Assembly: GCF_022763245.1 (NCBI RefSeq)
Contig: NZ_JALEGV010000019.1
Coordinates: 1 to 35,028, forward strand
DNA length: 35,028 nucleotides
Reading direction: 5' to 3'
Source of the DNA: Oricola sp.
GTDB lineage: Bacteria > Pseudomonadota > Alphaproteobacteria > Rhizobiales > Rhizobiaceae
Below the pieces are notes generated by a model. The model did no database searches, was not told where the DNA came from, and saw only the letters and a program-made list of their open reading frames with translations. Shown here in pieces: positions 832-21,661 of this stretch (its first letter is position 1; each line of letters starts with the position of its first letter). A program made the position numbers and the translations under genes.

Positions 832-2715
832 TCATATCGCGAGCTCAGGCACCCCCGCATCAGTCAGAAGCTGATAGAGCTCAGCTACATTGTTTCGCTC
901 TCCGCGTTGTTGGCAGAATGCGAAGATGGCGCGTTGTGTCGCCCGAGAGAGGGCGACGAAAAACGCTGCGACGCCTTCGGGGTCGCCGGGCGTGTGGGCC
1001 CACCAAGCCCGGTCATCGAGGCCAACAAAGATGATGGTGTCGTATTCGAGCCCCTTGCTCTTATGGACGGTCATCATCGGAATCTGATTGACCCCCTCGA
1101 ACGCATCTAGGCAGGCCGTCCAGTTCGGCGAGCCATCGGCAGAAGCGAAGAAGTGGATGCAAAAGGCTTCAAGGATGATCTGAAGCAAGTCGCCAACGCC
1201 ATATTCGGCATAGGTTCGGGCGATCGCCCCGAGATCGAGATATTCGAAAACCCGTCTGACGAAATCGATAGCGCTTTGCCGCGACGGGGCGGTGGCCGCC
1301 ATATCGCTGCGCAAGGCAGTGAGAAATGCGCTGAGTTCCGCCTCGACCTTGGCCGCGCGCGCATCGTCGTCTTGCCCGGTAGCGCGCAGCGCCAGGACAG
1401 AAGACGAGACCAGCTGCCATGCGGCCGGCGCACGGCGTGTCGCGCCCAAGCGGAAGATCGCAATCGCGAGCCGGCTTAAGTCATCGGAAAGCAAATCCTG
1501 AAGCGAGGTTTTGCCGAGGGTATGGCTCTCGTTGCGGATCCGCAGACCGTGAGCTGCGAAGGCTCCAGCGAGTTCGTGCTCATAATCGTCGGATTTCTGC
1601 TTCACGAGGAGCGCGTAGTCGCGCGGCACTCGTCCGCGGGTGGCCATGTCGTTAGCGATCCATTGCGCCAGGTGGGTGGCTTCCGCCGCCTTTGTTTGGC
1701 TGGTCCAGACCTGAGCCACGTCGCCATCCACTTGGCGCGCCGTCTGAGCGACCGTTGGGACGGTGTTCGGATCCAGAGCGCGCGCGACAACGTGCTGGAT
1801 AGCGACCAAGTCGGGCGAGGAACGGAAGTTGAAGAGGAGGGGGAAGCGGGCTCCCCCGAAATCGGCCTGCAGACGCTGAAAGGCGTCCTGGCGCGCGCCA
1901 GCGAAGACCATGATCCGCTGCTTGTCGTCACCGACGCCGGTGATGACGGTGGGCCCCCCAAAAAAGGCCGAAAGCAGGAAGTCGTATTGCGCGTAGGTCG
2001 TGTCTTGGAATTCATCGACGAAAACGAAGGGATAGGTGGCGACAAGCGCCCGACGGATGTGGGGATTGGCCCGGAGAAGCAGCTCCGCGAGCCGGTTGAT
2101 GCCGACGAAGGTAAGTGCAGAGGGCTGGCCTGGCCGTAGTTGCGTTGCCCACCAGCGGGCGATGGCGAACTCGGCGGCGTTCTGGGGCGCGATAGGTCCC
2201 ATGGGCAGGCGGTAGCTGCCGACGATCTTGGATTCAAAGTCGCTCGCGCTGTAGCCGGCGATTTCCGCCTGCCATTCCGGCGGCGCATTGAGCCGGGCGA
2301 GCGTGAGGAAGCCTTCTGTCGCCTTGCGCTTTGGGAAGGAGATTTCGTAGGGCCGGGTCGGGCGCCAGTCGGTAGGGATGGCGTTGAGAAAGCGATCGAC
2401 CAAGCTCTTGGTGAAGGCGTCGAAGGTGACCGACACGAACCGGTTGGCGAACTCTGGCGGGCACCGCTGGCGGACGCGCGACGCGAGATTGTTGGCTGCA
2501 TCTGTTTTGAACGAAATCGCCAGCACGCGGTGCGGCGCTCGGCAGAGGCCCGTCTCAAGCAAATAGTCGGCGCGTTGGGCCAGAAACTCGGTCTTGCCGG
2601 CGCCAGGGCCTGCGACCACACACGCCGAGCCGGCGTGGCGCAGGGCATTCCACGCCGCCGGTTCGAGATCGTTAATGCCGCTCGGGCGCCAGTCCTCTGG
2701 CCGAATACGGCGCAT
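832..2715 (-). CDS. UvrD/Rep-like superfamily 1 helicase (GajB-like)
   Basis: This 627-aa protein is an SF1A DNA helicase. Visible motifs are Walker A AGPGAGKT (35-42), Walker B DEFQDT (234-239), motif III GVGDDKQRI (260-268), motif V MTVHKSKGLEYD (548-559) and motif VI FFVALSRATQ (585-594). The open frame extends further upstream, but that extension is low-complexity Arg-rich shadow sequence inside the upstream ATPase gene. The ATG at 2715 lies two bases after that gene's TGA, so I chose it. An OLD/TOPRIM ATPase followed directly by a UvrD helicase is the arrangement of Gabija (GajA-GajB). Here the helicase is longer than the roughly 500 aa of typical GajB, as far as I recall. The expected role is translocating on or unwinding foreign DNA, or sensing DNA ends, with the ATPase-nuclease. 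It is the last gene of the leftward operon. Confidence 0.88.
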   Translation of the reverse strand: MRRIRPEDWRPSGINDLEPAAWNALRHAGSACVVAGPGAGKTEFLAQRADYLLETGLCRAPHRVLAISFKTDAANNLASRVRQRCPPEFANRFVSVTFDAFTKSLVDRFLNAIPTDWRPTRPYEISFPKRKATEGFLTLARLNAPPEWQAEIAGYSASDFESKIVGSYRLPMGPIAPQNAAEFAIARWWATQLRPGQPSALTFVGINRLAELLLRANPHIRRALVATYPFVFVDEFQDTTYAQYDFLLSAFFGGPTVITGVGDDKQRIMVFAGARQDAFQRLQADFGGARFPLLFNFRSSPDLVAIQHVVARALDPNTVPTVAQTARQVDGDVAQVWTSQTKAAEATHLAQWIANDMATRGRVPRDYALLVKQKSDDYEHELAGAFAAHGLRIRNESHTLGKTSLQDLLSDDLSRLAIAIFRLGATRRAPAAWQLVSSSVLALRATGQDDDARAAKVEAELSAFLTALRSDMAATAPSRQSAIDFVRRVFEYLDLGAIARTYAEYGVGDLLQIILEAFCIHFFASADGSPNWTACLDAFEGVNQIPMMTVHKSKGLEYDTIIFVGLDDRAWWAHTPGDPEGVAAFFVALSRATQRAIFAFCQQRGERNNVAELYQLLTDAGVPELAI

Positions 2716-2717
2716 GG

Positions 2718-4685
2718 TCAGGCACCCGCGGGAGGCGGCGGGGTGAGACGAGCGACAATCGAGGTCAGGAGTGCGCGCAGTTCTTCGGGAGCGGCGGCTG
2801 CGAGGGCAGCCGGGTCTTGTGAACTCAACACCCGAACGTGGGTGCTGGGCTTGCCGCGCCCCAGGAATAGATACCGATACCAGCGCATCAAACCGTCCTG
2901 GTCGGCAGCGTACAGGTGAGGCAGACCGTCGTCGCCGAGAACCGCGGTGCGCGGCTCCCCTGCAGGCGAAGGCCCCTGGCGGCCGGGTTCGACGATCTGA
3001 TAGGCGAGCGGGAGAGCCTTCAGCATCGCGTAGTCGAGGTCGAGGGGCGTGCAGAAGAAGACATTGAACTGGCGCAGCCAATTCATCCAGTTTGTGATAT
3101 TCGCAATGTCCTCGATCGGCAGGGCATCGAAAGCCGCCAGATTGGCGACTGGCTCTTGGGCGTTAAGATGCTGTCCGAAGATTGCCTGTGGTGTGACGTT
3201 GTTTGCGAGTAGTTGCGTGCAGGCTGTCTTGATACGCCCCCATCCACCACCGGCGCGGCCCCAGTCGAGATCCAGCAGCGTTGCGTAGGGGATGTCGAGA
3301 TCGGTCAACAGTCGCCAGAGGTGGTTCACATGGCGACCACCCAACGGAACGACCGCGACGAAGGATCGGTCGATATCGAGCCCCATCGCCTCGGCGATAC
3401 GGGGAAGAACGACCTCCTCGGACGCACCTTCTCCAAGCACTACGAAGCGCGCGAAATAGAGTTCGGGATAGGTCCGCACGGCTTCGCGAATGAATTTCGA
3501 TGCCTCTTCCTCGCCGACGGGGAGGTTGATAGGACGGATGCGGGCCGTTCGATCGTGCGGATCGAGCCGGAAGTGCCGCACCTGCCTCGGATCCACTCGG
3601 GCGAGGATGCTCGGGGAATGGCTGGAGACAACAGCCTGGGCCTGCGGCGAGTTAGTCAGGTCCTGTATCTGCCGGACGATGCGGGAGAGGTAGAAGGGAG
3701 CGAGGTTGTTCTCCGGCTCTTCGATCGCGATGAGCGTGAGCGCCGGTAACGGTACGCCGCCAGCCTGGAAACCGGCTGCAGCAGGATTGGCGACGATCCC
3801 GGCTTCAATGTCCAAGGTCGCCGCGGTCATCGCCAAATGAAAGAGCGATCTCTGGCCGTCGCTCAGGTCATCGAGGGCTCGCTCCCGGCCGGCCTCATCG
3901 GGACGGAAGGCCACCTCTACGTTCCGGATGAAATGCTCAAAACGCAAATCCAGCGGACGGAAGATCGGCGTCGTGTCAGTCCCGGCTGTGTAGACTTCCT
4001 GCCACCGCCGCGTCACCGCTGCGGCAATCACGCCGACCGCCGGCTCCCCGGCGAAGGCGCCGTTCAAGGCGGCGCCGGCGTTTGTGAACGTGTCGCGGAC
4101 TCCCTGCGACCAGTTGATGGCGCGCCACAGCCTGCCGCGCAGAAAGGCTGTTACCTGGGATGCGCCGTCCCGCGTCGCCGGCACGTAGATCATTTGGATC
4201 CGAGCCCGGTCAGCCGCTTTCAATTCAGAGCAATCAGCGTCGGTGAACGTCCCGAAGGTTCTAACCGCCCAGTATTTCTGCTCAATCGCGCCATCAAGCG
4301 AACCGTCATCGGTCCAAGTCGCTTCGAGGCGCAGGCGGCATTTCAGTTTGCCCGCTTCATCCGCAGCCATTTGGTGGAAGAACTCCGGAATTGCCGCACC
4401 GCCAGCGCCGTCGGCATCCAGTTCCGGAAAGGCAATAATTGCCTCAAGAAAGAAGCTTCGTTGGAGCGGCGCGACAAGCTCGGTGGAAGGGACATGGAAG
4501 TCTTGGCGCCGTAAGCGTCTCTGATCGCCGGTCACGCCGAAGAGCCGCTGCAGGGCTTGCATCAGGGCCGTCTTCCCCGCACCATTGACGCCGACAAACG
4601 TGGTAAGTTCGAGAGTGAGGTCTACGCTTGTCGCTTCAGGTCCGAAGCAGCGGAAATTTGTCAGACAGAGCCGCTCAATAAACAT
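2718..4685 (-). CDS. OLD-family ATPase with TOPRIM nuclease domain (GajA-like)
   Basis: The 655-aa protein has an N-terminal ABC/SMC-type ATPase and a C-terminal TOPRIM domain, the architecture of OLD nucleases and Gabija GajA. Visible elements are Walker A GVNGAGKT (32-39), signature LSDGQRS (274-280), Walker B LIAIEEPENNL (318-328), the SSHSP switch (354-358), TOPRIM glutamates in VLGEGASEE (416-424) and an acidic DLD (472-474). About 170 residues follow the TOPRIM core, which makes it longer than GajA as I remember it. I start it at the ATG at 4685, which has an AAGGGGA purine run about 10 nt upstream and begins with the family-like MFIERLCLTNFRCFG. A GTG at 4745 would add 20 residues. A gap of about 150 bp to the nuclease gene may hold an internal promoter. 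Confidence 0.88.
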   Translation of the reverse strand: MFIERLCLTNFRCFGPEATSVDLTLELTTFVGVNGAGKTALMQALQRLFGVTGDQRRLRRQDFHVPSTELVAPLQRSFFLEAIIAFPELDADGAGGAAIPEFFHQMAADEAGKLKCRLRLEATWTDDGSLDGAIEQKYWAVRTFGTFTDADCSELKAADRARIQMIYVPATRDGASQVTAFLRGRLWRAINWSQGVRDTFTNAGAALNGAFAGEPAVGVIAAAVTRRWQEVYTAGTDTTPIFRPLDLRFEHFIRNVEVAFRPDEAGRERALDDLSDGQRSLFHLAMTAATLDIEAGIVANPAAAGFQAGGVPLPALTLIAIEEPENNLAPFYLSRIVRQIQDLTNSPQAQAVVSSHSPSILARVDPRQVRHFRLDPHDRTARIRPINLPVGEEEASKFIREAVRTYPELYFARFVVLGEGASEEVVLPRIAEAMGLDIDRSFVAVVPLGGRHVNHLWRLLTDLDIPYATLLDLDWGRAGGGWGRIKTACTQLLANNVTPQAIFGQHLNAQEPVANLAAFDALPIEDIANITNWMNWLRQFNVFFCTPLDLDYAMLKALPLAYQIVEPGRQGPSPAGEPRTAVLGDDGLPHLYAADQDGLMRWYRYLFLGRGKPSTHVRVLSSQDPAALAAAAPEELRALLTSIVARLTPPPPAGA

Positions 4686-4765
4686 GTTTCCGCTTTCCCC
4701 TTCTCGCTGACTTGTTGCGCCAAGTTTCTCTTGAGCGGTAGCCACGCCATTCTACGATTTTGCTA

Positions 4766-4771
4766 CTTATA
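4766..4771 (-). promoter_or_regulatory. possible internal -10 element before the OLD/UvrD pair
   Basis: The gap between the nuclease and ATPase genes is AT-rich compared with its surroundings and contains TATAAG on the minus strand, about 75 nt before the ATPase ATG. No convincing -35 lies at 16-18 nt. It may allow the OLD/UvrD pair to be expressed apart from the methyltransferase. The support is weak. Confidence 0.25.
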
Positions 4772-4839
4772 CTTCATGAATCAACACAAGGCGTGCTTAA
4801 GTCTTAACAGCGCGATAAAAGTCACGCGCGCCGCTTTCC

Positions 4840-5493
4840 TCAATCGGTCGGCGCGGCGCCCGACGGCTTGGAAAATAGCGCGTGGCGAAGTTCGATCTGT
4901 GATCCGGTTTGGCGGGTGTGCCTTGTTCGGAAGCGCTCAATCGTTTCGATCGCGGCAAGTGGTGTAGGTCCCTCAGCTAACGCGAGAGGGACATGTCCGC
5001 CGATGGCGTCGGCAATCCGTGAATTAGCAAAGGGCAGGTCGCCGTCGAGCACGTAACCTAGCATGCACCCCACAGGCAGCTGCTCGGCATACTGCTCGGT
5101 GAGAAAACGCATCATGCCCTGGGTGACGTACACGGTGGCCAGGGAACTGCGGCTTCCGCCGCTGATCACGTTGAGCCGCTTGCACTCATAGGCCAGGTAT
5201 CGCTCCCGATCCCAGTCGAAGAGTACGGCGATGTCGATGATGCCCTTGCTGTATTTCGACCCGTCAGCCGCTAGGCCGAACGGCTCGAACTGATACTCGA
5301 CCCAATGGCATAACCGACGCACCACAACGTCCTTGGCGAGGCGATCAACGAGGTTAATGGTGATGTCATTTTCCCCTGGCTGTTCCGGAAGAACCGCCAT
5401 GCACTCTGGCCACGCTGCCGCGATCCTCTCCAGGAAGCGGTCGTCAAACGAAACGAAGTTGTCGAGCCATGCCTGCACATCACCGATCAGCAT
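4840..5493 (-). CDS. small PD-(D/E)XK-type nuclease candidate
   Basis: The 217-aa protein has no name I can recall. It carries a restriction-endonuclease-like signature: an aspartate in KGIIDIAV (D87), a hydrophobic strand, then E103-C104-K105 in YLAYECKRL, which is the D...(E)XK pattern. A conserved-looking region, YVTQGMMRF followed by GCMLGYVLDGD, comes after it. Its ATG shares one base with the methyltransferase TAA (TAATG), so the two are probably translationally coupled. By context I infer the restriction partner of the methyltransferase, or a DNA-end-processing enzyme shared with the OLD/UvrD pair. The fold assignment rests on a short motif and needs structure prediction. Confidence 0.72.
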   Translation of the reverse strand: MLIGDVQAWLDNFVSFDDRFLERIAAAWPECMAVLPEQPGENDITINLVDRLAKDVVVRRLCHWVEYQFEPFGLAADGSKYSKGIIDIAVLFDWDRERYLAYECKRLNVISGGSRSSLATVYVTQGMMRFLTEQYAEQLPVGCMLGYVLDGDLPFANSRIADAIGGHVPLALAEGPTPLAAIETIERFRTRHTRQTGSQIELRHALFSKPSGAAPTD

Positions 5494-8400
5494 TAATTCG
5501 CGCCCCGCTGCTGGGGCGCGGCGGCAGCTTGCTGGAGGTCGAGCGCTATTCCATCGGCATCGGCGAGCGCCGTGGAGCGCAGCCAGAAGCGCATCTGCAT
5601 AGGCTTTATGAGGTATAGGCAGTCCCCGACGAAAACGCGCAGATCCGGCATGAGCTGGAAGTTACCGTCGAGGGGCCTGTGGATGTGAGCCGCAAGCTGC
5701 TCGAGTACGTCGCTGAGTTCGCCGGCTGCATGTTCGGCATAGTCTTCATGGCCGCCCAGATGCAGACGCAGGATTGCCAGATCAGCGCCGCGCGCGACAA
5801 GGCGCGCATCGATCTTCTTGCCTTTGAACCAGTCCGCGAGGCTCGCCGACAATGTGCGCGCGTATTGAGCGCGTTGCGGTTCGTCAGGCGCGCCCCAGAG
5901 TTTTGGGAAGTGGCCTTCATGGGGCTGAATCGCAGGAAGGATCGCCTCGACAGTGTCGTCGATTAGCGCTATCTCATCGGGAGACAGGCAAAAATATTGG
6001 TACGCTAGCCGGTCGATCGTCCGGAGGATCTCGCTGTCATCGACCTGCATCGAGAACGGCTCGTTGGAGCGTTCGCGTGCGTCGTCCACAATCGCGATTA
6101 GCTCAAGGGCCGCTTGGGCTGCTGCGGCTTGATCCGGGAGATCGTCGGGCGATGGGAACGGCAAGCGGAGCAGGTCGGCCTGCTGGACTTCGGGTCGATC
6201 CGACCCGAACGAAGCGGTGCCGTGAAAAGCGTACCAGACCGCGATCCGACTATTGAGTATCGCGGTCAGGAGCTTGGCACGGTCGCTCTCTCCCTCCGGC
6301 ACCACGATCGCCTGGAAGATATGCTGGAAGGTCAGCGGCCGATCGCAATAGGCGGCGCGAAGGCGGTTCTGCGACGTCTCGACTCCACGCGGGATAAGGA
6401 TCCGCGAGCCATCGAAGCCGGCCTCGAAGCCGCGGCGACGAACCGTCGACGATGTGGCCGGCATTAAGCCTTCCACAGTCTGGGCTAGGCGTGAGTAGGC
6501 CGCAATGGGTAGGTCCGGCAGTCGGCCGACATACGCGCTTTCGAGTGGAGGCGCATCGCTATCGCTGTCTTCATTGAAGGGCTGATAGCCTTGCCCGATC
6601 ACCCAGCGATCGCCCGGCTCTTCGCGGCGACGGCTTAGGCCGCCAAAATCATTGACGAAGGCCTCTAGCTTGGGAAGCCGTGCGAGGTAGCCGAAAAGTT
6701 TGGCGTCCGGTTCGCGCATCCAAAGGCGCTGCTTGAAGATGAGCGGGTTATCGAGAACCCCGCCCACCCCGAGCGAGGCCTTGTCCGCGCTGCTCAGCGT
6801 GATGACACGCTTGATGCGCAGGTTGAGGTCGGCCTTCGGCGCCCAGTAGTCGAAGCGATACGGGAAACTACCCGCATTCGCGCTGCCGTAGATGATCAGA
6901 GCTGTGGGGCGATGGGCTTTCTCAAAAAGCTGAAAGCGAAGGTCGGCGAAGTTGATGACGCGGCGGACATGGGATTTCCGGAAGAACGCGTCACGCGCTT
7001 CGACCGTCTTTTGGGCGTGGTTATGCAAAAATCCCATCGCCGGTAGCAGGAACGCGATCAGTCCGCCGTCGGCAAGATGCGACAGCGCTTTCCAACTGAA
7101 TGCCCAGGCGTCCTCGCCACCGGGCATGGGGTGGCCGGCTTTTTTGCTCCACTGCACAGACGAACGCGCCGGACCGCGGCGGCTGGTCCATGGCGGGTTG
7201 CCGATGATGACCTCGTATTGGGCGCCGTCCGGTGACACTTCGAAAAAGTCGCGGCAGACGAGAGTCTTGCCCCAAAGTTCCGGGAGGAGTTTCCCCCGAG
7301 TGATGAGCTTGCGGATGTCGCGTGGCGAGACCTCTTCGAGTAAGGCGACGTAGAGCGAAAACACGGCGACCCGAACGGCGGCGCCATTCAAATCCCAGCC
7401 ATGGATTTGGCTCAGTAAGGACAGCAGCGTTTTCCAGGAAATTGATTGCGTCTTGTGCTTGGCGCGCCAGTGTTCGCAGAGCCGCTGGAACGAGCGGACG
7501 AGAAAAACGCCTGAACCACAGGCCGGGTCGAGGAAGTTTCCTGTCGTCCTTGTCGCATCCGGCAACATTTCCCATGCTTGGGAAACGACCGTGTCTGCAA
7601 GGAACATGGGAGTGTAGTAGGCGCCGTTGGCGCGGCGTTCGACCTCGCGTTCACCCAAGAACCGATCGTAGACGGCGCTAACGAGCTCGATAGGGATATA
7701 GCGGAAGTCATAGCCCCAGAACCGCTGCTGTCCGGAATGCGCCATTTCTTCACGGCCTGACCGGAACCGCGCCAGGATCGTCAGATGGGTATGCGTGACT
7801 TCTGGCGCCTCGCTCGTGGCCTCGAAGGAGCACGGTGCGACGAACAGATCGCCGTTGAAATCCGCGTGGAGGGTCCGGAACAAAGACTGGAACAGATTGA
7901 CGTCGCCAGTTTCGAGCAGCGTCGAAAAATTCTCCACGCTCTTCTCGGAGACGGCTGCAAAGTAGGCGGGCGTTACTATTTCCCGGTCCTCAAGGTAGGC
8001 GATGAACATTGCCTGTATAAGTAGGGCCTGGGCCGCATCTGGAGCGAGCGCGGCCTTTTGCAGGAGACTATGGGAAGCTTTCAGATTGTCGAGGAGAACC
8101 TGATCGATACGTTCTTTTGGGGGGAAATACTCGCCGTAGTCCTTCCAGAGGCGTCCAGATTCCGCGCCATAGATGAGATTCTGAAACCGCAGCGCTTCGG
8201 TCGTCAGACTGAGGCTATCGATAAGGCAGCGGGTCTCGAAGTCGTCGCCTGGATCGCTAAGCGGAGTGCGAGCGAGCGAAAACGCTCTGAGCGTGTCTTC
8301 GGCGATGACCAGCAACAGGCTCGCGAGGCCCTGATTCCACAGCGCGCCGTGAAGGTCGATTATTGTGGCGCGATCATACTGATCGGTTTCCAGGATCGCC

Positions 8401-8585
8401 ACAGTTGGGATGCCCTGGACGCAGAAGATCGCTGATACGCCCATTTCTGTTAGGGCGGCTCGGATCGCCGACGCATGCGGCACGTCGCTGACGGCCTCGG
8501 CTGACTCGTAGAGTTCAGGCAAGCGTCGATGCGTGAGCCCCAAGCGGTCTTTCCACTCCGGCCCTAATGTGGATGCCGAGGTCAT
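5493..8585 (-). CDS. Eco57I-like class I SAM-dependent N6-adenine DNA methyltransferase
   Basis: This 1030-aa protein is a large gamma-class DNA adenine methyltransferase. Visible motifs are motif X GAYYTP (321-326), motif I DPACGSG (353-359), an acidic motif II GWDLN (397-401) and catalytic motif IV NPPW (463-466). The N-terminal 200 residues contain LHGALWNQG (78-86), a stretch I associate with the non-catalytic N-terminus of type II R-M methylases, and I see no clear PD-(D/E)XK motif there. The roughly 550 C-terminal residues presumably hold target recognition. The true start is the ATG at 8585, which overlaps the preceding gene's stop as ATGA. The longer frame up to 8711 is shadow sequence. 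It probably marks host DNA so that the downstream nuclease and ATPase-helicase spare it. Confidence 0.9.
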   Translation of the reverse strand: MTSASTLGPEWKDRLGLTHRRLPELYESAEAVSDVPHASAIRAALTEMGVSAIFCVQGIPTVAILETDQYDRATIIDLHGALWNQGLASLLLVIAEDTLRAFSLARTPLSDPGDDFETRCLIDSLSLTTEALRFQNLIYGAESGRLWKDYGEYFPPKERIDQVLLDNLKASHSLLQKAALAPDAAQALLIQAMFIAYLEDREIVTPAYFAAVSEKSVENFSTLLETGDVNLFQSLFRTLHADFNGDLFVAPCSFEATSEAPEVTHTHLTILARFRSGREEMAHSGQQRFWGYDFRYIPIELVSAVYDRFLGEREVERRANGAYYTPMFLADTVVSQAWEMLPDATRTTGNFLDPACGSGVFLVRSFQRLCEHWRAKHKTQSISWKTLLSLLSQIHGWDLNGAAVRVAVFSLYVALLEEVSPRDIRKLITRGKLLPELWGKTLVCRDFFEVSPDGAQYEVIIGNPPWTSRRGPARSSVQWSKKAGHPMPGGEDAWAFSWKALSHLADGGLIAFLLPAMGFLHNHAQKTVEARDAFFRKSHVRRVINFADLRFQLFEKAHRPTALIIYGSANAGSFPYRFDYWAPKADLNLRIKRVITLSSADKASLGVGGVLDNPLIFKQRLWMREPDAKLFGYLARLPKLEAFVNDFGGLSRRREEPGDRWVIGQGYQPFNEDSDSDAPPLESAYVGRLPDLPIAAYSRLAQTVEGLMPATSSTVRRRGFEAGFDGSRILIPRGVETSQNRLRAAYCDRPLTFQHIFQAIVVPEGESDRAKLLTAILNSRIAVWYAFHGTASFGSDRPEVQQADLLRLPFPSPDDLPDQAAAAQAALELIAIVDDARERSNEPFSMQVDDSEILRTIDRLAYQYFCLSPDEIALIDDTVEAILPAIQPHEGHFPKLWGAPDEPQRAQYARTLSASLADWFKGKKIDARLVARGADLAILRLHLGGHEDYAEHAAGELSDVLEQLAAHIHRPLDGNFQLMPDLRVFVGDCLYLIKPMQMRFWLRSTALADADGIALDLQQAAAAPQQRGAN

Positions 8586-9058
8586 GCTCGATTCCCGCGC
8601 CGTTCCCGCTGCTTGGCCACGGAAGTAGGGGGGAACTGGAGATATCCTTGCACTTGATCGATTTCGGTCGCCGTAAGCGCCGAGCGCAGTCGCCCTATGA
8701 TTGGCGCGCACGGCACGCAGATGATGGAAGTATCCGGCGAGCGGCGATGGGCCGCGTTTGCGTCGACCAGGCGGAAGTTGTCGGCTTCGATCAAGGCTAC
8801 ACAGCTTTCAAGCGAGAGCCAGGACCGCCCCTGACACTCCTTGAACAGCTGATCGAAACGGCCGCTGACCGTTCCCACGCGCACACCGAAATTCCTGACC
8901 AGTTCGGCGACAATAGCCATGGCGACAACATCTCCCGGCGTGAAGCTGGGGGCATGCCCTTTATGTAGGGCCAGTGCGGGAATGGCATCCCGCCACGTAC
9001 GAAAGGCATCTACAGAAATGGAAAGAAGTTCACGAATCTGGCTTTGAGTATAACGCAT
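8582..9058 (-). CDS. small MerR-like helix-turn-helix DNA-binding protein
   Basis: The 158-aa protein opens with a MerR-like winged-HTH segment: YTQSQIRELLSISVDAFRTW, then a 'wing' and GDVVAMAIVAELVRNFGV (about 1-60). After that comes a less recognisable region predicted to be alpha-helical. It is the first gene of the leftward operon and overlaps the methyltransferase by ATGA, so I infer an autoregulator or controller protein that times methyltransferase against nuclease. A TGCCA-N8-TGGCA inverted repeat overlaps the candidate -10 directly in front of its ATG and could be its operator. No Shine-Dalgarno sequence is visible. A DNA-sensing subunit of the defence complex is an alternative role. 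Confidence 0.7.
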   Translation of the reverse strand: MRYTQSQIRELLSISVDAFRTWRDAIPALALHKGHAPSFTPGDVVAMAIVAELVRNFGVRVGTVSGRFDQLFKECQGRSWLSLESCVALIEADNFRLVDANAAHRRSPDTSIICVPCAPIIGRLRSALTATEIDQVQGYLQFPPTSVAKQRERRGNRA

Positions 9059-9061
9059 TTG

Positions 9062-9093
9062 CCAACATTAGCTGGCATTGTTTCCCATATCAA
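9062..9093 (-). promoter_or_regulatory. candidate promoter and operator of the leftward defence operon
   Basis: On the minus strand TTGATA (9088-9093) is followed after 17 nt by TAATGT (9065-9070). The predicted start, 6-7 nt further on, falls at or next to the ATG at 9058. That would give a leaderless mRNA, in line with the missing Shine-Dalgarno sequence. TGCCA-N8-TGGCA lies across the -10 region. Confidence 0.5.
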
Positions 9094-9173
9094 TACGGGG
9101 TTAATCCCGTTTGTGTACCCTATTTGTTCCAAGTTTGCACCACTTATTCCTACGGTTGCGCTGACTTCTATGC

Positions 9174-9240
9174 GTCCGAAGAATGTAGCATATTTCGGAC
9201 AATCTTGCGCATGTCCGAAGAATGTAGCATATTTCGGACA
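9174..9240. repeat. two identical 28-bp palindrome-like repeats (probable AbiEi operators)
   Basis: Exact copies lie at 9174-9201 and 9213-9240, with an 11-bp gap and a 39-bp period. Each has perfect 7-bp outer arms, GTCCGAA and TTCGGAC, around a 13-bp centre. The second copy ends on the A of the AbiEi start codon. AbiEi antitoxins are known to repress their own promoter by binding paired inverted repeats, so these are very likely its operators. Two copies with an 11-bp gap exclude a CRISPR array. Confidence 0.8.
9205..9240 (+). promoter_or_regulatory. candidate abiE promoter, possibly leaderless
   Basis: TTGCGC (9205-9210), 17 nt, then CATATT (9228-9233) lies inside the second repeat. The predicted start at about 9240 is the A of the AbiEi ATG, and there is no Shine-Dalgarno sequence. 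Repressor bound to the repeat would cover the -10 directly. Confidence 0.45.
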
Positions 9241-9908
9241 TGACCTCTCCAGCTCAAGATACAGATCTGCGCTCCAGGCTACTCGCCCGGGTTGCGTCTC
9301 AGCCCGACGAGGTCTGGACGCCCGCCGATTTCGCCGATCTTGGCGGGCGCGCCGCCATCGACAAAACCCTGCAGCGCCTCGCCGCTGCCGGTGAGCTTCG
9401 CCGTATTGATCGCGGCCTCTATGATCGACCACGCAAAAACTCTCTGACCAGACAGCCCACCATACCGGATTATCGGGCTGTGATCCGCGCCGTGACCCGT
9501 CGCGACAAGGCGCGAGTTGTTGTCGACGGCATGACCGCCGCAAACGATCTCGGCCTTACAACGGCCGTACCGGCGCGTGTCGAGGTGCTGGTTGATGCGC
9601 GGCTGAAGCCGATCAAACTCGGCAATCAGGAGATTCATTTCAAGTTCGCCGCACCAAGCCGGCTCTACTGGGCCGACCGGCCCGGCATGCGGGTTGTCCA
9701 GGCCCTGTATTGGATGCAGGACATGCTGACCCAGGACGATGAGCGAAACCGGGCACGAAATACGCTGCGCCGATTGTTCGCCGATCCGAAACACGGAAAG
9801 GCGATCCGTGACGACCTTCGCGCCGGCCTTTCAGCCTTGCCGATCTGGATGCAGGAATTCCTGCGCGACCTTGTCACTCCCGTCGATACCAACGAGGCCG
9901 AGCAATGA
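9240..9908 (+). CDS. abiEi: type IV toxin-antitoxin antitoxin, AbiEi/DUF6088-like
   Basis: The 222-aa protein has an N-terminal winged helix, WTPADFADLGGRAAIDKTL to IDRGLYDRPR (about 26-65), followed by the AbiEi-type core with VVVDGMTAANDLGLTTAVP. It is the antitoxin and transcriptional repressor partner of the next gene, which it overlaps by ATGA. In the abortive-infection system AbiE the antitoxin opposes the nucleotidyltransferase toxin without a stable protein complex (type IV). The tandem repeats that end on its start codon fit self-repression. There is no ribosome-binding site upstream and a -10-like element lies 7 nt before the ATG, so translation may be leaderless. It is divergent from the methyltransferase operon across 181 bp. 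Confidence 0.88.
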   Translation: MTSPAQDTDLRSRLLARVASQPDEVWTPADFADLGGRAAIDKTLQRLAAAGELRRIDRGLYDRPRKNSLTRQPTIPDYRAVIRAVTRRDKARVVVDGMTAANDLGLTTAVPARVEVLVDARLKPIKLGNQEIHFKFAAPSRLYWADRPGMRVVQALYWMQDMLTQDDERNRARNTLRRLFADPKHGKAIRDDLRAGLSALPIWMQEFLRDLVTPVDTNEAEQ

Positions 9909-10951
9909 GCACGACCGCCTACAAGCAGGTCGTCGAGACCCCCGCGCGGGACCGGCTCGATCTATTCCTGGCAACCGCTAACCGTCTCGGAGCGCCAGTG
10001 GGTAATATCGAGAAGGACTTCTGGGTGTGCTGGACCCTGAACGCGCTCTATCACGAGCGACCTGCCGGAGCGCCGCGCCTCCTCTTCAAAGGCGGCACAT
10101 CGCTGTCGAAAGCTTACGGTCTCATTCAACGGTTCTCCGAGGATATCGACATCACCGTTTTCCGCGATGATCTCCACGAACCGGCGTCGGTCGAAGAACT
10201 CGAAGCCCTCTCGAACAAGAAACGCCGTGCCAGACTGGATGCGATCCGGGACGCGTGCCGCGCGTATATCACCGGCCCGCTTCGAGAACTTCTTGCCGAG
10301 CAACTGGCCGACCTAACCGGTGGTGTAGGGCGCATCGAGATCGACGAGGCCGATCCCGACGGACAGACACTTCTCGTCTGGTATCCAGAGGTTGAGCCGC
10401 GCGACGGCGCATATGTGCGCCCAGCCGTTCGAATCGAATCCGGCGCAAAGTCAGCGCTTGATCCTAACCGGCCCGTCACGATCCGCCCCTACATCGCCGA
10501 CGAGGCGTCATCATTGGATTTGGCAGTAGCTGATATAACCACTGTCGAGGCAACACGGACCTTCTGGGACAAGGTTGTCATCGCGCATGGCTTGCGCCGC
10601 TGGTATGAGCGGCGTGGCGTCCTTCGCCAAGAAGGTCAACGCGTGTCGCGGCACTATTACGATCTTCATTGCCTCCTAAACTCAGACGTGGGCCTGGCTG
10701 CCCTCGGAGATTTTGATCTCGGTGCAGATTGCGTCCGACATGCGCGGATGTTCTTCAACCGACCTGACATGGACCTCGCCTCGGCCATGCCGGGTACATT
10801 CGCCATTGAGCCTGTCGACGGCATGGTGGCGGCGCTCAACGAAGACTACGCCAACACGACCGCAATGATCTTCGGAACAGCGCCTGAATTTGAGGACGTG
10901 CTTGCATCCGCAGCAGCGATCGAACATCAATTGAACAAGGTCGCAACCTGA
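9905..10951 (+). CDS. abiEii: type IV toxin-antitoxin toxin, AbiEii/AbiGii nucleotidyltransferase
   Basis: The 348-aa protein is a DNA-polymerase-beta-fold nucleotidyltransferase of the AbiEii family (DUF1814). Diagnostic motifs are FKGGTSLSKAYG (61-72), the catalytic acidic motif RFSEDIDIT (76-84), TFWDKVVIAH around 213-222, and RHYYDLHCLL further on. AbiEii-type toxins transfer nucleotides to RNA targets such as tRNA acceptor ends and arrest growth, which aborts phage infection. The length is close to the family norm and all core motifs look intact, so I expect an active toxin. A large compound inverted repeat begins 11 bp after its stop. Confidence 0.9.
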   Translation: MSTTAYKQVVETPARDRLDLFLATANRLGAPVGNIEKDFWVCWTLNALYHERPAGAPRLLFKGGTSLSKAYGLIQRFSEDIDITVFRDDLHEPASVEELEALSNKKRRARLDAIRDACRAYITGPLRELLAEQLADLTGGVGRIEIDEADPDGQTLLVWYPEVEPRDGAYVRPAVRIESGAKSALDPNRPVTIRPYIADEASSLDLAVADITTVEATRTFWDKVVIAHGLRRWYERRGVLRQEGQRVSRHYYDLHCLLNSDVGLAALGDFDLGADCVRHARMFFNRPDMDLASAMPGTFAIEPVDGMVAALNEDYANTTAMIFGTAPEFEDVLASAAAIEHQLNKVAT

Positions 10952-17812: not shown

Positions 17813-19084
17813 TCATCCTGCATGTGCGGCGGCGGCCTGCAACGACCGGTCCAGGGATTCTCGAAAATCGGGATGGGCGATCGCCACCAGCGCGCGGGCG
17901 CGCGCCGGGAAGTCCAGTCCCCAAAGCTCGGCGGAACCGAATTCGGTCACCACGATGTCGATATCGGACCTTGCTGTGGTGACGGGCCGGTTTTCGAGGC
18001 CGGCCACGATCTTCGAGGTCTTGCCGTCCGCTGTCGTCGAAGCAAGCGCGATGATCGAACGGCCGCCCTCGGACAGTCGTCCTCCGCGCACGAAATCCAC
18101 CTGGCCGCCGACTGCGCCGATATATTTGCCGCCGGCGAGTTCCGAATTGACCTGCCCGGTCAGGTCGATCTCGATCGCCGAGTTGATCGTGTAGAACTTC
18201 TTGAGCCGTGCCATCGTTTGCGCGGCATGGGTATAGGCGGCGCCACGCAGGGATACGGCGTTGTTGCCGTCCGAGAAATCGAACAGGCGCCGGTCGCCGA
18301 AGAGCCCCCCGGTCACCATACGCCCTTCGTCCAGTCCCTTGTGGAGGTTGGTGACGGCGCCGTTTTCCAGCAGATCGACGGCGCAATCGGGAATGACGCC
18401 CGAATGGATGCCCAGGTGCTTGTGGCCCGCCAGCGCCGCGCAGACCGCGGTGGGCAGCCCGCCGATGCCAAGCTGGATGGTCGCGCGGTCGGGAACGATT
18501 TCGGCCACCCGCCGGGCGACCTCGATATCCGTCGCGCCCGCAGGCGCGTCGGGAAGCAGGGGTTCCGGTCCGTCGGCCAGGGTCAGGTGGTGGATGCGAT
18601 CGCGGGCGATCAGCGCATCGTCCCCGGTGAGGGGCAGGCGATCGTCGATTTCCGCGATGACGACGCGGGCGGCGTCGACCATTTCCTGCACGAAATCGGC
18701 AACCACGCCGGCCGAGAACATGCCGGGCTCCTCGGTCGGTCGGACCCGCAGCAGAACGACATCGACCGGCAGACGCCGCGACCGGATCAGGCCGGGGACC
18801 GTCGAGACATGGGCGGGCATGATCCGGTTGCCGGAATGGGCGGCCGCGCTCCGCGTGCCGGCCGCGCCGTTGAGGCACAGGAACCGGGCGCCGCTTTCGA
18901 CCAGCGCCTTGGGTGTGCGCGTCGTGGCCATCCCCAGAACCGCGACATAGGCGGGAAGGTCCGGAGTCGCCTCGACAAGAGCGGCGGTCAGCCCCGTCGG
19001 CTCGCCGGTGCCCTGGGGCCAGACGACATGATCGCCGGGCTGCAGGACGGAGGCAAAGTCGAATTCGGAGCTGGGCTTGGTCAT
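17813..19084 (-). CDS. acetyl-CoA hydrolase/transferase family CoA-transferase
   Basis: The 423-aa protein belongs to the family of 4-hydroxybutyrate, acetate and succinyl-CoA:acetate CoA-transferases (family I, Cat1-like). Visible family stretches are INSAIEIDLTGQVNSE, GGQVDFVRGGRLSEGGRS with SIIALAST, and the C-terminal VTEFGSAELWGLDFPARARA. It would activate a carboxylic acid using acetyl-CoA or succinyl-CoA. It opens the six-gene leftward operon and has its own promoter and operator-like site upstream, with AGGA about 11 nt before the ATG at 19084. A second CoA-transferase of a different family lies upstream, so two acids or two pathway stages may need activation. Confidence 0.9.
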   Translation of the reverse strand: MTKPSSEFDFASVLQPGDHVVWPQGTGEPTGLTAALVEATPDLPAYVAVLGMATTRTPKALVESGARFLCLNGAAGTRSAAAHSGNRIMPAHVSTVPGLIRSRRLPVDVVLLRVRPTEEPGMFSAGVVADFVQEMVDAARVVIAEIDDRLPLTGDDALIARDRIHHLTLADGPEPLLPDAPAGATDIEVARRVAEIVPDRATIQLGIGGLPTAVCAALAGHKHLGIHSGVIPDCAVDLLENGAVTNLHKGLDEGRMVTGGLFGDRRLFDFSDGNNAVSLRGAAYTHAAQTMARLKKFYTINSAIEIDLTGQVNSELAGGKYIGAVGGQVDFVRGGRLSEGGRSIIALASTTADGKTSKIVAGLENRPVTTARSDIDIVVTEFGSAELWGLDFPARARALVAIAHPDFRESLDRSLQAAAAHAG

Positions 19085-19132
19085 CTCGGGCGACAGTCCT
19101 TCGGTTCTCGGCGCAAGGTGCCTTAACGCTTA

Positions 19133-19167
19133 AATTGATCTATATGATTAAGATAAGGTTGTGGCAA
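19133..19167 (-). promoter_or_regulatory. promoter of the six-gene CoA operon with operator site B
   Basis: On the minus strand TTGCCA (19162-19167), 17 nt, TATAGA (19139-19144) is a good sigma-70-type promoter. The island motif copy B (19133-19150; plus-strand AATTGATCTATATGATTA) covers the -10 completely, the geometry of a repressor site. It is the best-formed promoter in the island. Confidence 0.6.
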
Positions 19168-19186
19168 GCCGAGCCGATCGTTTTTG

Positions 19187-20404
19187 CTAGAGGACGCGAT
19201 CCTGCCTGAGGGTCTCATATTCCTCGTCCGACAGGCCGAGAAAACCGGTGACGACTTCACGGTTGGCATCGCCAAGCGGGCGGCTCGGCTCGAGCGGAAG
19301 TCGTTCGAGACCCTTGAAGCTGAACGGTGTATGCGGGAGGGTCACGTCGCCCAGGCCGGGATGGGAGACCTTTTGCAGGCTGCCGCGCGCCAGCATGTTG
19401 GGATCGTTCATGACTTCCTTGAGGTTGCGGACAGGGGCGGAAGGCACCTTGGCGGCGAGCATGGCGTCGGCCACTTGTTGTTTCGTGTGCCGCCGGGTCC
19501 ATTCGGTCAGCAGATCGTCCACCAGGGTGACGTTCTGCACCCGCGCCGTGCGCGTGGAGAGCCGCGGATCGTCCTTGAGGTCCGGGCGTCCGATGACATC
19601 GAGGATGGCGCGGAAATGGTGATCGCCGGGGGAGTTGATGACGGCATAGCCGTCGCTGGTTTCATAGGCGTTGTAGGGCGACACGCCGAGGCCGCCGTGG
19701 CGGTTGCCGGTGCGTTCGGGCGCGTCGTCGCCCCTTGCGTGCTGCATCCCGTAATTCGACGCGAGCGAACAATAGGTGGCGTCTTGCATCGAAACTTCGA
19801 CGATGCGTCCCTTGCCGGTTTTTTCACGCTCGTAGAGCGCCGTCATGACGGCGGCATAGAGATGGATGCCGGCGAAGAAATCGCACAGGGCTGCGCCGGA
19901 TTTCACCGGCGGGCCGTCCGGAAAGCCGGTCGAATTGATGACGCCGGACATCGCCTGTACGACGAGGTCCATGGCGGGAAAGTCCTTGTAAGGCCCGTCG
20001 CTGCCATAGCCGGAACTGGAGCCGTAGACGAGCCGGGGATTGATTTCCCGCAAGGTTTCGGCGCCGAGGCCGAGCCGCGCCATCACGCCCGGAGCGAAGT
20101 TTTCGATCAGGATGTCGGCCTTGGCGACCATGGCGCGGAACAGTTCCTTGCCCCGCTCGGATTTCAGGTCCAGCGTGATCGGCTGCTTGTTGGAGTTCAG
20201 CATGGCAAAGGGCAGGTCCGCGCCCCCCATGTCGCCGCGGCTGCGCAGATGCTCGCCTGTATGCGGCTCGATCTTGATGACGCGCGCTCCGGACAGCGCC
20301 ATCAGCAACGTGGCGTAAGGCCCGTTATAGACGTGCGACAGATCCAGTACGGTCACGCCGGAAAGCGGATAGCGGTCGGTCGCTTGCATCTCGGCCTCGG
20401 TCAT
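19187..20404 (-). CDS. CaiB/BaiF family III CoA-transferase
   Basis: The 405-aa protein is a family III CoA-transferase, as in formyl-CoA, succinyl-CoA:mesaconate or itaconate CoA-transferases. It begins VTVLDLSHVYNGPYAT (17-32), contains IKIEPHTGEH (44-52), LILIENFAPGVM-like sequence at about 98-108, and PAMDLVVQAMSG with the catalytic Asp at D146, the Frc D169 equivalent. The C-terminal half carries the family sequence APVRNLKEVMNDPNM. It probably activates a dicarboxylate with succinyl-CoA. It lies 70 bp after the alcohol dehydrogenase gene on the same strand and is probably co-transcribed. ATG 20404 is the first start, and a second Met at residue 6 is possible. Confidence 0.9.
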   Translation of the reverse strand: MTEAEMQATDRYPLSGVTVLDLSHVYNGPYATLLMALSGARVIKIEPHTGEHLRSRGDMGGADLPFAMLNSNKQPITLDLKSERGKELFRAMVAKADILIENFAPGVMARLGLGAETLREINPRLVYGSSSGYGSDGPYKDFPAMDLVVQAMSGVINSTGFPDGPPVKSGAALCDFFAGIHLYAAVMTALYEREKTGKGRIVEVSMQDATYCSLASNYGMQHARGDDAPERTGNRHGGLGVSPYNAYETSDGYAVINSPGDHHFRAILDVIGRPDLKDDPRLSTRTARVQNVTLVDDLLTEWTRRHTKQQVADAMLAAKVPSAPVRNLKEVMNDPNMLARGSLQKVSHPGLGDVTLPHTPFSFKGLERLPLEPSRPLGDANREVVTGFLGLSDEEYETLRQDRVL

Positions 20405-20474
20405 TTCGATTTCGGTCCTTTCTCGTTCGTCGGTCCGGCGCGGTACGTGGGTGGTTGTCTTTGGATTGCGCCGC

Positions 20475-21611
20475 TCACAGCGTTCCGTGCGGCAGCAGCA
20501 CCTGACGGATCACGTCGCCGCTGTCGAGCCGGTCCAGGCTGGCGTTCAACTGGTCGAAGCCGATTGCAGAACTGCGCAGCCGGTCGACAGGCATCTGCCC
20601 TTCGGTGAAAAGTTTCATGTAGTGGGGGATATCCCGTTCGGGAACGCAGCTGCCCATGAACGAGCCGCGAATATTGCGTTCCTGCGATACGAGCGTGGCG
20701 TGCACGAAGTCGTACCTTGCGTCGGAGGCTCCGAGGCCGACGCAGATCACGTCGCCACCGGGGCGGATGAGATCCGGCGCGGATTTCATTGCGGCGGGCG
20801 CGCCGGACATTTCGAAGGCGAAATCCACACCGTCCCCGGTCAGCACGCGGACCTTCTCGACCAGTTCCGGGTCGTCGGCGCGCAGCGTGTCCGTTGCGCC
20901 GAGTTCGCGCGCGATGGGGAACTTGTCGTCGCGCATGTCGATGCCGATGATCGTCTTCGCTCCGGCGACCCGCGCGGCCATAAGCCCGTTCAGTCCGATG
21001 CCGCCCAGACCGATGATGGCGACGCTCGCACCGCTCGGGACCTGCGCCGTGTTGAAGACCGACCCTGCGCCGGTGACCACGGCGCAGCCGAAAAGCGCGG
21101 CCACGTCCAGCGGGATCTGCGGATCGATCTTCACCAGCGATCCGGGCATCGTCACCGCATATTCGGCAAAGCCGGAAATGCCGGAATAGTGATAGATCGG
21201 TGCGCCGTTGCGGCTCAGCCGGCGCTGGCCGTTGGCCAGCAAGCCTTTTGTGCGCGGGGCCGTCACGGACTGGCAAAGCGCGGGACGGTCGCGCCGGCAA
21301 TGAGCGCAGACCCCGCAGCCCGAAACCACGGTCATCACCACATGGTCGCCCTCGCTCAGATGAGTGACGCCCGCCCCGGTCTCGCGTACTATCCCGGCGG
21401 CTTCGTGGCCGCCGACCACGGGCAATTGCCGTTTGCGCAGGCCTTTCACCTGGCTGAGGTCGGAGTGGCACAGCCCGGCGGCGCGGATCTCGACGAGGAC
21501 CTCGCCGGGGCCCGGGCTGTCGAGGTCGACTTCCTCAATCCGGAACGGCTGGCTTTGTTCGAATGGCTTGGGCAGGCCCTGCTCGTACATGACCGCGGCT
21601 GTGATCTTCAT
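20475..21611 (-). CDS. zinc-dependent alcohol dehydrogenase (MDR family)
   Basis: The 378-aa medium-chain dehydrogenase has the catalytic zinc ligands C48 in GLCHSD and H69-E70 in GGHE. The structural zinc cysteines are C99, C102, C105 and C113. The Rossmann motif is GLGGIGLNG, followed by an acidic residue in GIDMRDDK that suggests NAD. It looks like the class III/aryl-alcohol branch and would oxidise a primary alcohol to the aldehyde. The ATG at 21611 has GGAGG 10 nt upstream. An in-frame start at 21644 lacks that. It is divergent from the aldehyde dehydrogenase gene, the natural next step, and both promoters share operator site C. Confidence 0.9.
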   Translation of the reverse strand: MKITAAVMYEQGLPKPFEQSQPFRIEEVDLDSPGPGEVLVEIRAAGLCHSDLSQVKGLRKRQLPVVGGHEAAGIVRETGAGVTHLSEGDHVVMTVVSGCGVCAHCRRDRPALCQSVTAPRTKGLLANGQRRLSRNGAPIYHYSGISGFAEYAVTMPGSLVKIDPQIPLDVAALFGCAVVTGAGSVFNTAQVPSGASVAIIGLGGIGLNGLMAARVAGAKTIIGIDMRDDKFPIARELGATDTLRADDPELVEKVRVLTGDGVDFAFEMSGAPAAMKSAPDLIRPGGDVICVGLGASDARYDFVHATLVSQERNIRGSFMGSCVPERDIPHYMKLFTEGQMPVDRLRSSAIGFDQLNASLDRLDSGDVIRQVLLPHGTL

Positions 21612-21661
21612 ATAGCGAATTCCTCCGGTGTTTAGGCGCGCCACGACAGGTCGTACTGCGG

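Follow-up and report, generated by a model that had tools for sequence, protein, structure and literature searches.

A recurrent five-gene defence cassette in Oricola sp. pairs a type II-like restriction-modification unit with Gabija

Introduction

The expression of restriction-modification (R-M) systems can be timed by C proteins, and the known C proteins are Xre-like. Gabija, another kind of anti-phage defence, combines an OLD ATPase fused to a TOPRIM nuclease (GajA) with a UvrD-like helicase (GajB), and an OLD nuclease and a UvrD-like helicase encoded in tandem have been reported as the class 2 OLD arrangement (PMC6755086). A survey of BREX systems describes the recruitment of OLD ATPases to the vicinity of methyltransferase systems (PMC12839542), so the co-location of an OLD nuclease with a modification system is not new as an idea. 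Here we describe a locus in which R-M and Gabija genes adjoin each other, at positions 832-9058 of the contig NZ_JALEGV010000019.1 of Oricola sp. The contig, which comes from a 5.6-Mb genome, was analyzed over its whole length of 35,028 bases and is referred to as the window.

Results and discussion

Five genes in two modules

Five open reading frames (ORFs) on the minus strand of the window encode, in this order, a helix-turn-helix (HTH) protein, a methyltransferase, a PD-(D/E)XK nuclease, an OLD-TOPRIM protein and a UvrD-like helicase (Table 1). With the starts chosen (9058, 8585, 5493, 4685 and 2715 in gene order), genes 1 and 2 overlap by 4 bp and genes 2 and 3 by 1 bp, a gap of 154 bp separates genes 3 and 4, and 2 bp lie between genes 4 and 5. 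The ORFs and their junctions bear out the gene order given by the original prediction, which had been made from the sequence alone.

We consider it very likely that the locus consists of two self-standing anti-phage modules which are arranged head to tail and spread together. This interpretation draws on the gene content, the conserved catalytic residues, the predicted fold of the nuclease, the separability of the two halves and a conserved palindrome. Module 1 (9109 down to 4840) would be a type II-like R-M unit, in which the methyltransferase would mark adenine at its site in host DNA, the small PD-(D/E)XK nuclease would cut the unmarked site on incoming DNA, and the MerR-like HTH protein would bind the palindrome upstream of its own gene and time expression. 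Module 2 (4685 down to 832) would be Gabija, with GajA and GajB joined in a single complex which has its own trigger and attacks invading DNA.

Gabija is known, and in the five-gene set two systems of known kinds are recurrently paired. What is new is the R-M unit, whose nuclease is uncatalogued and whose controller is MerR-like and not Xre-like; this unit is also the least known part of the cassette. No published description of the cassette or of the R-M family was recognized in the open literature searched, a scope outside which REBASE and subscription papers lay.

Table 1. Positions of the features of the five-gene locus in the window.
Feature	Position	Strand	Remarks
Palindrome CGGGATTAACCCCG, probable operator of the HTH protein	9096..9109	-	1 mismatch to CGGGGTNNACCCCG; 50 bp upstream of the HTH start
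MerR-like helix-turn-helix regulator, 158 aa (P0001)	8582..9058	-	weak MerR_1 matches among homologues
N6-adenine DNA methyltransferase, 1030 aa (P0002)	5493..8585	-	motif I DPACGSG 353-359, motif IV NPPW 463-466; profile matches
PD-(D/E)XK nuclease, 217 aa (P0003)	4840..5493	-	E41, D87, E103, K105
154-bp inter-module gap	4686..4839	-	CATGAAGTATAAGT-like block conserved in most five-gene loci
GajA, OLD ATPase + TOPRIM nuclease, 655 aa (P0004)	2718..4685	-	Walker A 32-39; E419/E423, D472/D474; PDLC00090
GajB, UvrD-like superfamily 1 (SF1) helicase, 627 aa (P0005)	832..2715	-	Walker A 35-42; DEFQD 234-238; PDLC00103

The Gabija pair

GajA matched the PADLOC model PDLC00090 over residues 1-647 of 655 (E 2e-241) and GajB matched PDLC00103 over residues 1-625 (E 4e-219), in both cases at full length. 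GajA also matched OLD-like_TOPRIM (E 2e-16), and the Walker A and TOPRIM residues of GajA and the helicase motifs of GajB are all present. As in other Gabija loci, an OLD ATPase is fused to a TOPRIM domain and a UvrD-like SF1 helicase lies 2 bp downstream in tandem. By these matches genes 4 and 5 are an ordinary full-length Gabija pair, with Gabija as their predicted activity, and the earlier assignment of the OLD and UvrD proteins to a Gabija core was correct. The R-M unit directly upstream is the sole difference in arrangement between the window's pair and Gabija. A long C-terminal extension of the ATPase had also been proposed as a difference; since PDLC00090 has 659 positions and its match runs to residue 647, the length of the protein is normal for the model and this distinction disappears. 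In sequence, the window GajA is remote (E 3e-4) from the GajA of solved structure. Next to the pair, a DUF1612/HTH_13 protein is encoded at 92-652 on the plus strand, convergent with gajB. Four plasmids (L022, L023, L027 and L028) have proteins annotated as 'RHE_PE00001 family' close to the R-M unit, and we presume that these may belong to the same family.

The restriction-modification unit

Relatives of the R-M unit were collected by a genome scan, of which the best 80 of 378 relatives were kept, and from plasmids, where the methyltransferase matched 91 records, 40 were listed and 11 loci were fetched. Alignments of 41 nucleases, 33 methyltransferases and 22 HTH proteins were made from sequences picked by hand from the 80 loci. 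The methyltransferase of the window matched N6_Mtase (E 2e-14), Eco57I (E 1e-10) and, over residues 11-603, the PADLOC model REase_MTase_IIG (PDLC03623, E 3e-80), and it carries motifs I and IV. Linked to it is the PD-(D/E)XK endonuclease, which follows the methyltransferase in 75 of the 80 genomic loci and is linked to it in all 11 plasmid loci fetched; of the five unlinked genomic loci, four (L053, L081, L098 and L100) stop at the contig end or close to it and the fifth (L099) is broken. The nuclease was unmatched by the Pfam, NCBIfam and PADLOC libraries searched. Its predicted structure is a PD-(D/E)XK-like fold, and the four residues E41, D87, E103 and K105 are kept in 41/41 aligned sequences, while one of ten nucleases in a wider plasmid set (L028) was without the D. 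This evidence makes genes 1-3 an R-M unit of type II-like composition, presumably site-specific, with adenine as its probable target and restriction as its predicted outcome. The steady linkage of the two genes supports the earlier impression that they form an R-M-like pair.

Like type II R-M systems with a C protein, the unit has a methyltransferase and a separate nuclease, a small DNA-binding regulator as its first gene and a palindrome upstream of the regulator. It differs from them in its MerR-like regulator, in a nuclease outside the libraries searched and in the size of its methyltransferase, about 1030 aa. Another possibility is that the methyltransferase polypeptide itself cuts, in the manner of a type IIG enzyme, and that the 217-aa protein is an accessory nuclease. 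REase_MTase_IIG is indeed its best PADLOC model, and both the methyltransferase core and the N-terminal half align with it. However, no invariant D...ExK signature was found in the N-terminal part of the 33 aligned methyltransferases, whereas the separate 217-aa protein keeps its catalytic residues throughout, and we regard cleavage by the methyltransferase as unlikely.

Three other systems were considered and rejected. The N6 methyltransferase core is shared with BREX PglX and MADS MAD2 (NCBIfam BREX-2 PglX, E 1e-14; MAD2, E 4e-6), but the window protein scored 53 vs 400 bits for PglX and 26 vs 720 bits for MAD2, far below the curated cut-offs. Kinship to Hma had been suggested, and the window does encode a helicase, a methylase and an ATPase. 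Hma is reported as a three-gene operon, often near Septu, of the HmaA helicase, the m5C methylase HmaB and the HmaC ATPase (PMC8565338). The methylase of the window is of the N6-adenine type and its helicase and ATPase are those of Gabija, and this different composition rules Hma out.

According to record titles, relatives of the R-M unit include Proteobacteria and metagenome-assembled genomes (MAGs) of Acidobacteria and Planctomycetes. Annotation probably reduces such units to a lone 'N-6 DNA methylase', the label in most of the plasmid records fetched, or to type IIG. In L043, the five-gene cassette is closely followed by another large Eco57I-type methyltransferase (17938-21648), and a TraG-type coupling protein is encoded upstream.

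The two halves occur together and apart

Close relatives were defined as loci whose methyltransferase is about 80% identical or more. There are 26 of them, namely the window, plasmid L016 and 24 loci of the genome scan; the methyltransferase DNA of L016, L040 and L061 is identical, so these three do not count as independent. The co-occurrence check proposed with the original prediction showed the five-gene order in other genera as well: in 11 of the 26, the window included, the R-M genes are followed by Gabija in this order, and three of these loci run off their contigs. In one of the 11 (L071), GajA is cut short at codon 378, next to a methyltransferase that is open. Two further relatives hold remnants of GajAB, which are a C-terminal piece of GajA in L037 (13755-13901) and the inter-module gap and a GajB tail in L041 (9710-10015). 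No GajAB was found downstream in the remaining 13, among which L099, L101 and L103 have a broken methyltransferase and the DNA of L093 extends only about 300 bp past the nuclease. Among the 56 distant loci, 42 of which have at least 5 kb downstream, only L048 and L056 have Gabija nearby. No match to GajA or GajB was found in the 11 plasmid R-M loci fetched; in two of these relatives (L025 and L026) the methyltransferase is in pieces.

From the Gabija side, 13 GajAB loci outside the cassette were compared. Three are plasmid loci, fetched from 40 listed among 147 records matched by GajA, and the other ten were obtained by searching 397 genomes at E 1e-100 and two further sets, of 385 and 398 genomes, at E 1e-150. 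The HTH, methyltransferase and nuclease genes were absent from the fetched DNA at all 13, of which L121, L122 and L128 have little flank. Among the matches listed, the nearest GajAB lies on a Sulfitobacter plasmid; it is 86-87% identical, and the homology begins at the gajA start codon.

Since each half is found without the other, the halves are separable, and the proposed dependence of Gabija on the modification module is not supported. We rejected this dependence also because the putative operator is not repeated upstream of gajA, the plasmid R-M loci have no GajAB, and GajAB is eroded in three relatives which keep the methyltransferase and nuclease open. A recurrent cassette with separable halves should therefore not be catalogued as an R-M-dependent Gabija, and it is set apart from the supposed new Gabija type. 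A role of the methyltransferase as a self-marker of Gabija, guarding host DNA from GajA with the nuclease and HTH protein as accessories, is very improbable. GajA is reported to be a sequence-specific nicking enzyme (PMC8136825), and the methyltransferase and gajAB are adjacent on one strand, as a self-marker would have it. However, the closely similar Sulfitobacter GajAB lies on a plasmid stretch without the methyltransferase, none of the 13 outside loci has one nearby (copies elsewhere in those genomes were not searched for), and the methyltransferase has a conserved partner of its own in the nuclease.

The cassette as a spreading unit

The block of the window from 831-838 to 9058-9129 recurs at 84-89% identity in seven complete five-gene loci of the ten others. 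The other three lie at contig ends, and the part present matches the window at 85-96%. The flanks of the ten showed no match to the window flanks at the threshold used; among the loci with the R-M unit alone or with remnants, L041 shares 655-1140 with the window in the DNA comparison. Some five-gene flanks carry relaxase, LPD7, TraG-type or AbiEi genes, which fits spread on conjugative elements. A full-length methyltransferase match was found in only one of 61 related genomes, the window's own, which fits a recent acquisition; matches in eleven others were partial and weak (best E 4e-15). The five-gene cassette thus exists as a horizontally spread unit with separable halves. Of the proposal that the two pairs could be mere chance neighbours, the separability holds, but a cassette that has spread as a block is more than chance.

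On the methyltransferase tree, which was built without the broken L099, L101 and L103, the presence of GajAB requires at least 5 changes when remnants are counted as present, and the five-gene label alone requires 6 changes, 3 of them forced by well-supported branches. One gain with repeated loss and repeated exchange both fit this distribution. The methyltransferase and GajA trees conflict, with p values of the approximately unbiased (AU) test of 1e-4 or lower in three tests and 0.15 in the fourth, for clades that were named after the trees had been seen. The identity correlation between GajA and GajB (0.45) is no better than that between methyltransferase and GajA (0.52), which points to general mosaicism.

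Several observations weigh against two modules that merely travel together. The same-strand five-gene order in 11 of the 26 close relatives extends over several families and a Methyloversatilis MAG, and the gap upstream of gajA is about 145-158 bp wherever gajA is complete enough to measure. R-M transcription may read through this gap into gajAB; no sigma-70 consensus promoter was found in its 154 bp in the window. The median dN/dS was 0.079 for the HTH gene, 0.071 for the methyltransferase, 0.094 for the nuclease, 0.079 for GajA and 0.101 for GajB, in a set of nine of the 11 five-gene loci (L036 and L071 left out, L046 with three genes only and L032 without GajB). All five genes are under purifying selection, and they are more than two random neighbours. 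L048 (13929-17536) and L056 (13929-17545), both Sphingomonas, form a second R-M/Gabija neighbourhood, in which a different Gabija on the opposite strand stands beside a 66-67% identical R-M unit. The GajA tree places the lone Sulfitobacter GajAB relative to the five-gene group with a support of just 57/78, and this GajAB may itself derive from a cassette. Lastly, the predicted nuclease fold reached a structural Z under 8, a middling value by the tool's own grading.

Some of these observations would also suit one cooperative system. Restriction makes DNA ends, and linear DNA with ends that RecBCD cannot reach is a reported target of Gabija (PMC12407980), so cooperation is possible: phages that shield their ends would survive restriction and then become targets of Gabija, and the pair would be selected as a unit. 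Its recurrence as a block, the purifying selection across all five genes and the second, differently oriented neighbourhood speak for such a system. However, GajAB is absent or a remnant in 15 of the 26 close relatives, the R-M unit has a separate palindrome and GajAB stands alone elsewhere. Moreover, the end-shielding work was done in Pseudomonas with RecBCD (PMC12407980), and may not carry over to the window's host. We judge a single cooperative system to be improbable, and hold equally little confidence in a two-stage defence selected as a unit, with the R-M enzymes cutting unmodified DNA and Gabija destroying cut molecules whose ends a phage has shielded. If it were true, escape from the R-M stage would expose the phage to the Gabija stage. 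The cassette is a natural test of whether Gabija and restriction cooperate.

The putative controller and its palindrome

Under the preferred interpretation of two self-standing modules, the HTH protein belongs to the R-M unit. The protein itself had no significant family match in the libraries searched. Among its 22 aligned homologues, Pfam MerR_1 was matched by seven (best E 4e-4) and Xre-like-HTH by two, all of them weakly. MerR_1 is the commonest family among the homologues, which sets the protein apart from the Xre-like C proteins, and two distant plasmid homologues are annotated as MerR family, which upholds the earlier description of a MerR-like regulator. Of the 80 genomic relatives, 44 yielded an HTH homologue and none was detected in the other 36; among the 11 plasmid relatives, six have one.

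Upstream of the HTH gene, a palindrome was compared in 24 of the 26 close relatives; L046 and L103, which show no HTH gene, were left out. The palindrome, CGGGGTNNACCCCG, lies 49-51 bp upstream of the HTH start, or 72 bp in the three loci with identical methyltransferase DNA. The strict form GGGGN4CCCC is present in 20 of the 24 upstream regions and a form with at most one mismatch in all 24, the window's copy with its one mismatch being among the four that miss the strict form. By comparison, the strict form occurred in 22 of 24,000 shuffled windows and in 14 of 23,241 random stretches. The centre of the palindrome takes 11 forms, and the 28 bp immediately 5' of it average 45% identity. Thus a small regulator has an operator-like palindrome upstream of its own gene, as is found with C proteins, and the palindrome is probably the operator that the HTH protein binds. 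With at most one mismatch allowed, the palindrome was absent from the gap upstream of gajA in all 11 five-gene loci, and the protein is likely to be a self-regulating controller of the R-M genes with no direct action at gajAB.

The regulator may also have a history of its own. The median dS of the HTH gene is 1.36, vs 0.44-0.68 for the neighbouring genes, and L036 and L042 are 99% identical in the HTH gene but 90% in the methyltransferase; the regulator therefore seems to have been exchanged between cassettes.

On the other side of the HTH gene, a Type IV toxin-antitoxin-like pair is encoded at 9240-10951 on the plus strand, comprising a DUF6088 protein and an AbiEii nucleotidyltransferase. 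Between the HTH gene and this divergent AbiE pair, the window carries at 9174-9240 a 28-nt repeat in two perfect copies, which have palindromic ends, lie 39 bp apart and are likely to be AbiEi operators. The cassette of L031, too, has an AbiEi gene in its flank.

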